IMG/VR virus record: IMGVR_UViG_3300032297_000501
Location: 1-57,346 of that record
Source: a virus
Reading direction: 5' to 3' (one strand)
DNA length: 57,346 nt
The position numbers and the translations under genes are program-made. Of the stretch, positions 1,030 to 38,273 are shown in pieces. Under the pieces are notes generated by a model that made no database searches, was not told the DNA's origin, and worked only from the letters and a program-made list of their open reading frames with translations. Numbering within the stretch: the first letter of the stretch is position 1; every line of letters begins with the position of its first letter.

Positions 1030-1950
1030 ATGAACACAATAGATAAAATTTTTAAGTACAATAGAAGTCCAGTTATTTCTGATTTCTTTAAAGAAAAACT
1101 AAATGAGCTAATTGGTTTTGGAACCTATCATAATGAAATTGAAAAGGTCCGTGATGGTATTGTTCAAGAGCTAATTAACTACAGAGAAAAATATAAAATT
1201 ACAAATGTAGTAATTGGCATGAGCGGAGGTCTTGATAGCGCACTAACAGCAAGTCTGTATAAGGCTGCTGGTTATCATGTTATCGGTGTTACACTGCCCA
1301 TCCATCAGAATCCAGAAGAAACTGCTCGAGGTATTGAAGCTATCAAGACATTAGGATTGGATCATGTGCATATCGACTTAACTAAAGCATATGATAACTT
1401 AGTTGGTTTCTATCAAACAGAGACTGTTGACCTCACAGACAACGATAAACCTACACTAATGCGTAAAGGTAATATCAGAGCTCGCCTACGTATGATTACG
1501 CTATATAATCTTGCAGGTAGGTATAAAGGCTTTGTTGCTAGCACTGATAACTTTAGTGAGTTAGCTGCCGGCTTTTGGACACTGCACGGTGACGTAGGTG
1601 ACGTAGCACCTATCCAAAGTTTAACTAAAAGTTGGGAAGTGCCTGCATTAGCAGAGCTACAAGGTGTACCCAATAGCACTATCTATGCAGTGCCTACAGA
1701 TGGTCTAGGTATTGCCAACGGTGATGAGGATCAGTTTGGATTTAGTTATTTAGAGTTTGACATTGCTGTGTTTACTCTTATTAAAGGATTGAGTTTAGCA
1801 AATGCCACAGAACAAGATATTAAAATTATTGAAAGTGTTAAATCTAGACTAAGAGGAACTGCATTTAAACGCTCTAATCCTTATAACTTATTTCACCCTT
1901 TGTTTGGTGCTAGATTTGACGAACTCAGGATTTTAGATGAGACGCTATAA
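1030..1950 (+). CDS. nadE: Ammonia-dependent NAD synthetase
   Basis: NadE adenylates and amidates nicotinate adenine dinucleotide to make NAD. The PP-loop SGGLDS is at residues 65-70. Further family blocks are ASTDNFSE, GFWTLHGDVGDVAPIQ and TDGLGI followed by GDEDQFG. At 306 residues it is slightly longer than the usual single-domain enzyme and has no glutaminase domain, so it should use ammonia. QueC, another PP-loop enzyme, was considered because deazaguanine genes lie elsewhere in the window, but the NadE-specific blocks exclude it. It follows guaC by one base and is followed by a late-type promoter that starts the next unit. Confidence 0.93.
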   Translation: MNTIDKIFKYNRSPVISDFFKEKLNELIGFGTYHNEIEKVRDGIVQELINYREKYKITNVVIGMSGGLDSALTASLYKAAGYHVIGVTLPIHQNPEETARGIEAIKTLGLDHVHIDLTKAYDNLVGFYQTETVDLTDNDKPTLMRKGNIRARLRMITLYNLAGRYKGFVASTDNFSELAAGFWTLHGDVGDVAPIQSLTKSWEVPALAELQGVPNSTIYAVPTDGLGIANGDEDQFGFSYLEFDIAVFTLIKGLSLANATEQDIKIIESVKSRLRGTAFKRSNPYNLFHPLFGARFDELRILDETL

Positions 1951-1956
1951 TTATCA

Positions 1957-1964
1957 TATAAATA
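1957..1964 (+). promoter_or_regulatory. T4 late-type promoter box TATAAATA
   Basis: Exact T4 late consensus TATAAATA, followed by CTG, in the 47 bp gap before the EF-hand membrane protein; an AGGAG ribosome binding site and ATG follow at 1986-1998. The same gap position holds a GATAAATA variant before several virion genes in this window. Confidence 0.7.
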
Positions 1965-1997
1965 CTGTGTGATACACATTTATAACAGGAGAATATC

Positions 1998-2333
1998 ATG
2001 GGTATTGAACTATTAATTGTTGTGGTGCTAGTTGGCACAGGTTTAGCATTCTGGTACTTTAACAGAGATGCTAAGTCAGCTGACTTAAACAACGATGGCA
2101 AGACAGATGTTAAGGATGCAGTAGTTGCTGTTGAAAACACAGTTGAAGGTCTTAAGGCCGCCGCTGATGTTAACAACGACGGCAAAGTAAATGCAGAAGA
2201 TGTTAAAGTTGTTGCAACAAAAGCTAAGGCTACTGCTAAAAAAGCAGTTAGTAAGGCTAAGGCAGCTACAGCTAAGACAGCTAAGTCAGCTAAGACAACT
2301 ACAGCTAAGACGCCAAAGTCTCCGAAGAAGTAA
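1998..2333 (+). CDS. Membrane-anchored protein with two EF-hand/dockerin-like loops and a Lys/Ala-rich tail
   Basis: Function unknown. Three parts are visible in 111 residues. A hydrophobic segment (about 2-20) would be a single membrane anchor. Two 12-residue calcium-loop motifs follow, at 29-40 (DLNNDGKTDVKD) and 57-68 (DVNNDGKVNAED), each with Asp/Asn at loop positions 1, 3, 5 and 12, as in dockerin or EF-hand repeats. The C-terminal third (about 74-111) is a low-complexity Ala/Lys/Thr tail resembling histone H1 tails. A T4-type late promoter precedes it, so it is probably made late, perhaps as a virion or envelope protein. Calcium and nucleic-acid binding are inferences. Confidence 0.8.
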   Translation: MGIELLIVVVLVGTGLAFWYFNRDAKSADLNNDGKTDVKDAVVAVENTVEGLKAAADVNNDGKVNAEDVKVVATKAKATAKKAVSKAKAATAKTAKSAKTTTAKTPKSPKK

Positions 2334-20176: not shown

Positions 20177-20659
20177 ATGATGTGGTTGTTCTTTTGGATT
20201 ATTGGAAAAATACCTGCAACATTTTGGCTCATTACAGCTTGTGTTGGTGTTGCACTTTTCTTTGCAGCGGGCATATTAGGAAGACTTCCTCCTTTCAAAG
20301 CCTACTCGATCTTTATCAAACCCCTTAGCGTTATAATGACTGTAGTGGGAATCTACATGTACGGCGGAGCAAGTATCAATGATCATTATCAAAAAATGAT
20401 CAAAGAGTACGAACAAAAAATTGCTATAGCTGAACAAAAAAGTGTAGCAGTTAATACAGTAATCGAAGAACGTGTCAAATATCAAACACAGGTTATTAGG
20501 GACAACCAAATTGTGTACCAAGATAAAATTATTGAAGTAGCCAAGGAAGTAAATGGTCAATGCAAACTTGATCCTAGAGTTGCTGAGATACTTAATGGTG
20601 CTTCTGTTTATCCAATTACAAAACCTGCACTAGACACAGATAAGAAGGATCCAAAATGA
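20177..20659 (+). CDS. Inner-membrane spanin-like protein (Rz-like)
   Basis: 160 residues with hydrophobic segments at about 2-30 and 45-63 followed by a long polar coiled-coil region (about 70-125, ending in KIIEVAKEVNGQC). A periplasmic coiled coil anchored in the inner membrane immediately before, and overlapping by 4 bp, a small outer-membrane lipoprotein is the hallmark of the i-spanin/o-spanin pair that fuses the membranes at the end of lysis. Classical Rz has one N-terminal anchor; this one appears to have two or three, which is unusual. No endolysin was found next to it. Confidence 0.75.
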   Translation: MMWLFFWIIGKIPATFWLITACVGVALFFAAGILGRLPPFKAYSIFIKPLSVIMTVVGIYMYGGASINDHYQKMIKEYEQKIAIAEQKSVAVNTVIEERVKYQTQVIRDNQIVYQDKIIEVAKEVNGQCKLDPRVAEILNGASVYPITKPALDTDKKDPK

Positions 20660-20937
20660 AAAAACTGATACTGATTCCTATGCTGATCATAATGTCTGGT
20701 TGTGCAACAAAGGTTCCTGTTGCCATGAAATTTCCTGCCGCACCTGAAAGTCTGCTAATTACATGTAAGGACCTCGAACAGGTAAAACCTAATGAAGAAC
20801 AACTTAGTGAAATGCTCAAAACAGTTGTTACAAATTATGGTCAATACCACGAGTGCAGAGCAAAAGTTGAAGCGTGGATAGATTGGTATAAAGGCCAAAA
20901 AGAAATACACGATTCGGTTACGGGTAAAGGGAAATAA
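20656..20937 (+). CDS. Outer-membrane spanin-like lipoprotein (Rz1-like)
   Basis: 93 residues. The signal peptide MKKLILIPMLIIMSGC ends in a lipobox (IMSGC) with the lipidated cysteine at about 16, and the mature part starts ATKVPVAMKFPAAP, a Pro/Ala-rich stretch like other Rz1 proteins. Two further cysteines may form a disulfide with the partner spanin. It begins within the last codons of the i-spanin gene. Together they would complete lysis by fusing inner and outer membranes, implying a Gram-negative host. Confidence 0.8.
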   Translation: MKKLILIPMLIIMSGCATKVPVAMKFPAAPESLLITCKDLEQVKPNEEQLSEMLKTVVTNYGQYHECRAKVEAWIDWYKGQKEIHDSVTGKGK

Positions 20938-37925: not shown

Positions 37926-38273
37926 ATGGCAAGAAAAACAGTAACAGTTGACGATGAAGTCTATGCTAAGGACACAAACGGCGACGGACACATTTCTAAG
38001 TTAGAGATTGAAATGGATATGGAATTTAAACGCAAGCGTTTAGAAGACGAAGATGCAATGCGTGATAGTCAACGTAAAATGGCTTGGTTCGCATTATTTG
38101 GTATGTTGTTATACCCAGCTTGTGTATTAATTGCATCATATTTTAGTATGGAAAATGGCGCAGGTGTATTAGGTGATATGGCACCTACATACTTCGTATC
38201 AGTGGCAGCGATTGTTGCTGCATTTTACGGTAAAACTGCGTTTGAAAATACAGCTAGAAAAGACGGCGAGTAA
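37926..38273 (+). CDS. Membrane protein with one EF-hand loop
   Basis: 115 residues. A canonical EF-hand loop lies at 16-27 (DTNGDGHISKLE: Asp, Asn, Asp at 1/3/5 and Glu at 12). Then a charged helix leads into two membrane helices (about 50-73, WFALFGMLLYPACVLIASYF, and 84-102, PTYFVSVAAIVAAFYG). The late promoter and topology (soluble N-terminal domain, two helices) resemble phage holins or holin regulators, but no direct proof exists. It echoes the two-loop protein at 1998, suggesting calcium-sensing membrane proteins are a theme in this phage. Confidence 0.78.
   Translation: MARKTVTVDDEVYAKDTNGDGHISKLEIEMDMEFKRKRLEDEDAMRDSQRKMAWFALFGMLLYPACVLIASYFSMENGAGVLGDMAPTYFVSVAAIVAAFYGKTAFENTARKDGE

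Follow-up and report, generated by a model that had tools for sequence, protein, structure and literature searches.

The window analysed here, a virus contig of 57,346 bases taken at its whole length, encodes a protein of 111 residues (MGIELLIVVVLVGTGLAFWYFNRDAKSADLNNDGKTDVKDAVVAVENTVEGLKAAADVNNDGKVNAEDVKVVATKAKATAKKAVSKAKAATAKTAKSAKTTTAKTPKSPKK, as translated from the window) in which an N-terminal hydrophobic helix, two calcium-type loops and a Lys/Ala-rich tail follow one another. The open reading frame and these three parts are real. At one locus shared with related phages, the parts behave as modules: the C-terminus is exchanged, helical and amphipathic-looking N-termini take each other's place, and the loops, where they occur, are complete. 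We tentatively favour, with a little less than even confidence, the view that this protein is a small, cytoplasm-facing tether of nucleic acid, most likely phage DNA, at the inner membrane.

Features of the anchor gene and its surroundings (positions refer to the window)
Feature	Positions	Strand	Remarks
NAD synthetase (NadE)	1030..1950	+	Upstream neighbour; PF02540, 139.5 bits; bait for orthologous loci
TATAAATA octamer	1957..1964	+	T4-late-promoter-like; 5' of the 111-residue open reading frame
AGGAG ribosome-binding site	1987..1991	+	6 bases before the ATG of the 111-residue open reading frame
Membrane-anchored loop protein, 111 aa	1998..2333	+	ATG at 1998; TAA ending at 2333
N-terminal membrane helix	2004..2069	+	Residues 3-24; hydropathy, and AlphaFold2 helix at low confidence
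Dockerin-type loop 1	2082..2117	+	Residues 29-40; DLNNDGKTDVKD
Dockerin-type loop 2	2166..2201	+	Residues 57-68; DVNNDGKVNAED
Lys/Ala tail	2214..2330	+	Residues 73-111
Terminal SPKK	2319..2330	+	Residues 108-111

The three parts had been described in an earlier note made from the sequence, and all of them were borne out. The membrane anchor was recovered both by hydropathy and as a helix in the AlphaFold2 model, the latter at low confidence. The two 12-residue loops gave a Pfam Dockerin_1 score of 29.6 bits (cut-off 22.9), and of 200,000 shuffles of the protein 13 contained a single strict loop and none contained two; even a loose loop is present in just three of the 154 open reading frames of at least 60 residues in the window. 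The ligand positions for calcium are present in the loops, which probably bind metal. The tail is the richest 40-residue Lys/Ala stretch among the 154 window frames (25 of 40 residues, the runner-up having 18), and it ends in SPKK, a DNA minor-groove motif. The AlphaFold2 model of the whole protein is poor (mean pLDDT 59), and a fold search with it returned mostly EF-hand chains with E-values above 1; because of these two values that search was left out of the evidence.

The gene order is IMP dehydrogenase, NAD synthetase, anchor gene and HAD-type hydrolase (with a phosphomannomutase match). An IMP dehydrogenase gene directly 5' of NAD synthetase (36-1950) occurs here in a phage, and the order IMP dehydrogenase, NadE, anchor gene was found again in other viral contigs. 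The DNA polymerase of the window is related, at less than 60% identity, to 2,593 phage records, with the best matches in large phages, among them Sinorhizobium phage Phosso and Agrobacterium phage Atu_ph07.

Because finding relatives by their loops biases a sample toward loops, NadE was used as bait, and the downstream gene was read in 81 loci (the window and the best 80 of 156 relatives). A family or HeH gene was found downstream of NadE in 35 of these 81 loci, mostly 3-53 bases 3' of the NadE match (1.5 kb in L186), and in the other 46 the gene is absent within 1.8 kb or the sequence ends. The 35 anchor loci of this sample represent 27 distinct proteins of four layouts: membrane helix, two loops and Lys/Ala tail in three (the window, L167 and L168); membrane helix, one loop and HeH-like C-terminus in eight; membrane helix, linker and HeH in nine; and a short amphipathic-looking N-terminus, linker and HeH in seven. 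The last two layouts are loop-free, and loop-free proteins thus make up 16 of the 27 at this position (window and best 80 of 156). Sixteen of these proteins went into the HeH profile, so that their own scores against it are circular; eight proteins outside it (L177, L181, L182, L183, L186, L231, L234 and L236) match it with E-values of 6e-14 to 8e-24.

Over residues 1-54, the window protein is 54% identical to L188, which also lies 3' of NadE and carries an HeH tail; this is therefore one gene whose C-terminus has been changed. In a NadE tree that covers 27 of the 35 anchor loci and seven of the 46 others, the two-loop type forms one group and the amphipathic-looking type another, while the label of one loop plus HeH needs at least three changes forced by well-supported branches; a loop-bearing locus (L169) and a loop-free one (L176) are sisters with support of 97/98. 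In all 14 loops of the NadE sample (window and best 80 of 156), position 9 is D or N and position 12 is D, even though the regular expression used for them left position 9 free and allowed E at position 12. Loops in this sample are whole or absent, and no decayed ones were seen; the poor conservation of loop residues that the earlier note had named as speaking against its reading is not what was found. Since the anchor is shared, the tail exchanged and the loops often absent, the constant part is a membrane anchor with a C-terminus of nucleic-acid type, and the calcium-type loops appear to be an optional spacer between them. Of the link between calcium, membrane and DNA that had been proposed, the part that joins membrane and DNA is supported by comparison, in that the anchor is kept while the Lys/Ala tail is swapped for an HeH/Rho_N-like domain; calcium, in contrast, is not central to it, given the number of loop-free proteins at the NadE locus.

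The HeH part of the orthologs was compared with known domains by profile and by structure. An AlphaFold2 model of L188 has helices at residues 62-67, 70-79 and 90-105, with pLDDT values of 81-88 in residues 61-100. Foldseek matched the HeH model to endonuclease VII, Rho, SAP domains and YqbF, every one with an E-value above 1. VIA-align placed it on the Rho RNA-binding domain with Z 6.0 (rmsd 1.9, 47 residues), on T4 endonuclease VII with Z 5.7, on YqbF with Z 4.4 and on SAP domains with Z 3.3-3.9, but an unrelated ATPase reaches Z 5.9 against the same model, and Z values up to 6.0 lie within the warning range of the tool. The Pfam matches to Rho_N in L225 (16.6 against a cut-off of 24.9) and to YqbF_HeH in L069 (13.5 against 27) are below threshold, and in PHROGs the HeH part matches a prohead protease inhibitor, endonuclease VII, Arc-like and unnamed families. 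In comparison with the HeH/Rho_N/SAP domains (C-terminus of T4 endonuclease VII, Inh, N-terminus of Rho), then, the helices of L188 align with Rho and endonuclease VII, whereas the window protein differs in having a Lys/Ala tail, and the ortholog matches are weak in both E-value and Z. Rho, SAP and endonuclease VII bind nucleic acid, and the same role is therefore likely, if unproven, for the HeH part of the orthologs. An HeH-like module with the motif GRxxGIELDRRxxK also begins or ends many small phage proteins with quite different remainders (L293-L345); its spread suggests a docking or nucleic-acid module in wide use among aquatic phages.

With the loops as bait, the window protein found 18 loci in viral contigs and an alignment query found at least 80. 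The window and 97 loci among the matches listed gave 98 sources, of which 96 had a readable family frame (68 distinct), and clustering at 80% identity left at least 54 representatives, all in uncultured phages. The earlier note had suggested a search for the same three-part architecture in other phage genomes; it exists in these uncultured phages, but in tblastn searches of 50,697 phage records neither the window protein (E up to 1) nor any of three relatives used as queries (E up to 10) had a match, with the reservation that the low-complexity filter of BLAST may hide some. Two loops are present in 40 of the 54 representatives among the matches listed, one in 12 and three in two, counts that, like loop conservation in this set, are biased because loops were the bait (the regular expression fixes positions 1, 3, 5, 6 and 12, and most family loci were recovered by it). 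The spacing between loops is 28 residues in 34 of the 44 pairs in these representatives, as in the window protein; the others are 17, 21, 32, 39 and 46 residues apart.

Hydropathy predicts a membrane helix in 50 of the 54 representatives among the matches listed, and the remaining four (L014, L077, L090 and L091) have short N-termini such as MFGFLKKLFG. The tails are Lys/Ala-rich, with a median net charge of +11, and RGR[KP], which we take to be an AT-hook-like motif, is present in 16 of the 54 against a shuffled mean of 0.1. Ends of the form [ST]P[KR][KR] are not clearly enriched (4 of the 54 among the matches listed; shuffled mean 0.9, maximum 4). A loop-free relative (L269:267-620) consists of a membrane helix, a PYKVEPP linker similar to those in L090 and L093, and a long histone-like tail of KKPAA type; a query with a loop-free Lys/Ala tail matched nothing beyond its own record.

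The octamer TATAAATA, which we take to be the T4 late promoter, occurs twice in the window, both strands counted, where 7.1 copies would be expected, and one of the two lies 5' of the anchor gene; this scarcity looks as if the octamer were reserved for a special use. An exact copy lies within 100 bases upstream of 10 of the 54 family genes (among the matches listed) and of 16 of 514 other frames, and a copy with at most one mismatch upstream of 25 of the 54 and 129 of the 514, a comparison confounded by the longer intergenic gaps before some family genes. The gene product had been called a late membrane protein. The membrane half of that name agrees with the predicted helix, and for the other half the evidence is this promoter-like octamer, which makes expression of the anchor gene look late.

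The orientation in the membrane can be judged from the distribution of charge. In the 50 helix-bearing representatives among the matches listed, the residues before the helix carry a negative charge in 38, no net charge in 12 and a positive charge in none, and the tail is net positive in 49 (the exception is L013). Because just 23 of these 50 have a positive charge in the 12 residues that follow the helix (17 are neutral there and 10 negative), the positive-inside argument rests on the tail. The amphipathic-looking N-termini that replace the helix show no export signal by eye, and in only four of ten candidates does the hydrophobic moment exceed that of shuffles at 0.05 or better. A basic tail, an N-terminal flank that is never positive and replacements devoid of an export signal therefore favour a C-terminus in the cytoplasm. 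These features speak against the role at the cell surface and the role as a lysis sensor that had both been envisaged for the protein.

In the tether reading, the N-terminal helix would sit in the inner membrane of the host with the remainder of the protein in the cytoplasm; the Lys/Ala tail, or the HeH/Rho_N-like domain of the orthologs, would hold nucleic acid late in infection, with phage DNA as the likeliest ligand; and an optional spacer between the two, stabilised by metal, would be made up of the metal-binding loops, one to three in number, and their short helices. This reading is favoured by a Dps-like gene directly downstream at three loci (L012:5260-5697, L013:5420-5857 and L084:6212-6703; in L012 it matches the PHROG "DNA binding protein" with 116.1 bits), by the excess of RGR[KP] in the tails, and by L269, which keeps membrane helix and KKPAA-type tail in the absence of loops. 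Against it, a Lys-rich tail could equally bind acidic phospholipid and an HeH-type domain could bind protein or RNA, the HeH module is also found in phage proteins with quite different N-termini, and 46 of the 81 NadE loci (window and best 80 of 156) either lack such a gene in the vicinity or end too early.

The protein p16.7 of phage phi29, which organises the replication of phage DNA, has the layout of transmembrane segment, spacer and C-terminal DNA-binding domain, and is expressed early. Excerpts of one account describe it as an integral membrane protein that interacts with terminal protein and single-stranded DNA (PMC4974454). By description, then, it is likewise a small phage protein with membrane and nucleic-acid-binding roles, but in the window family dockerin-type loops can serve as the spacer, the protein ends in Lys/Ala or HeH, and the timing of expression appears to be late. 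Basic tails of the histone-H1-like and AT-hook kinds are known classes; the family shares with them the Lys/Ala tail, RGR[KP] in 16 of 54 representatives (among the matches listed) and, in the window, the SPKK end, but here they are carried by a membrane protein with no globular histone domain. If the tether reading is true, large aquatic phages own a dedicated device, built of interchangeable parts, for attaching nucleic acid or assembly sites to the inner membrane, and metal loops of the dockerin kind are in use in a membrane protein of phages, no cohesin having been found alongside.

An unlikely alternative, which needs no DNA binding, is that the protein holds the growing prohead, or its protease or scaffold, at the inner membrane in the T4 manner. 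According to the portions of a review available to us, T4 proheads start at the portal on the inner membrane with the help of gp40 (PMC9958956). In one group of relatives the anchor gene is flanked by head protease and capsid genes; in L010, the locus compared with PHROGs, it has the head maturation protease (phrog_207, 171.9 bits) on one side, the major head protein (phrog_138, 234.3 bits) on the other, and the portal (phrog_213, 216.8 bits) upstream. The HeH domain resembles the start of the T4-type prohead protease inhibitor families in PHROGs. The anchor gene comes next after the protease in nine of the 19 protease-bearing loci read, but another gene does so in eight and two run out of sequence. 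In the window and most relatives, moreover, the anchor gene lies apart from head genes and adjoins NadE or Fe-S/SOD-, UV-repair- or Dps-like genes (one group of relatives has it near putative IscU-, IscA-, SOD- and UvsE-like genes, named by reading).

Slightly less probable again is a membrane-surface protein with no nucleic-acid role, whose basic tail would lie on acidic phospholipid and whose loops would stiffen it, changing the charge or curvature of the membrane. A low-complexity Lys/Ala tail with the median charge given above and amphipathic-looking N-termini able to replace the helix would suit such a protein, but on this view there is no reason to expect RGR[KP] motifs, or a folded HeH/Rho_N-like domain where the tail would be at the same locus.

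We consider it improbable that the tether is a metal-gated clamp, in which the loops would be empty or Mg-bound in the low-calcium cytoplasm and the tether flexible; on breach of the membrane at lysis, calcium from sea or lake water would fill the loops and lock the helices, phage DNA or heads would be released or handed over, and loop-free relatives would be ungated versions. More improbable still is a calcium-triggered lysis or cell-surface sensor, with loops outside or at the membrane that sense calcium and trigger lysis or surface assembly. The loops are canonical (position 9 is D or N and position 12 is D in all 14 from the window and best 80 of 156) and Dockerin_1 passes its cut-off, but 16 of the 27 proteins at the NadE locus in that sample are loop-free, the sequence features point to the cytoplasmic face, a spanin-like pair sits elsewhere (20177-20937), and for the loop-bearing members no positive evidence of a lysis sensor was found. 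A true dockerin docking on a phage cohesin is very improbable: Dockerin_1 is above cut-off in four of the nine relatives scanned besides the window protein, and dockerin chains are among the best PDB sequence matches, but cohesin (PF00963) was found in none of 11 loop-bearing records (possibly fragments; the profile matched one of 14 control genomes), and loops are spaced 17-46 residues apart and single in 12 of the 54 representatives among the matches listed. The family shares with type I dockerins (PF00404) the usually tandem loop D-x-N-x-D-G-x-V/T-N/D-x-x-D, but it differs from them in its variable spacing, its occasional single loop and in being a short membrane protein and not a secreted enzyme.

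Three other identities were rejected. An Rz-type spanin was suggested by phrog_89 over the helix and Lys-rich coil with just 19.4 bits (E 0.0017), but no Rz1 lies beside the gene, whose neighbours are NadE and the HAD hydrolase, and another candidate pair exists. A lanmodulin-like reading gave a weak match, and proline at loop position 2, the criterion for lanmodulin, is absent. As to a bacterial origin, seven of 65 genome-contig loci were read, with frames of 487-2354 residues, and none had the short three-part layout.

The protein apparently is a small anchor protein of large aquatic phages that has been undescribed so far. No match in PHROGs or NCBIfam names it (those in NCBIfam are all far below cut-off), HeH queries in isolated phages match mainly the HeH part, our literature searches found no paper describing the family, and PMC7824862 mentions none of EF-hand, dockerin, HeH, AT-hook, calcium or transmembrane. 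The series at the one locus (helical or amphipathic-looking anchor; zero, one or two metal loops; Lys/Ala or HeH) offers natural variants for dissecting the parts.

Two further regions of the window may be mentioned. The probable spanin pair at 20177-20937 (+) overlaps; one member is a coiled protein whose N-terminal part has hydrophobic stretches, the other a lipoprotein-like protein of 93 residues (Rz1-like, LysC, 24.2 bits against a cut-off of 27). At 37926-38273 (+), a 115-residue membrane-type protein (Pfam EF-hand_5 16.7 bits, below cut-off) has two hydrophobic stretches by eye and an EF-hand-like loop, DTNGDGHISKLE.
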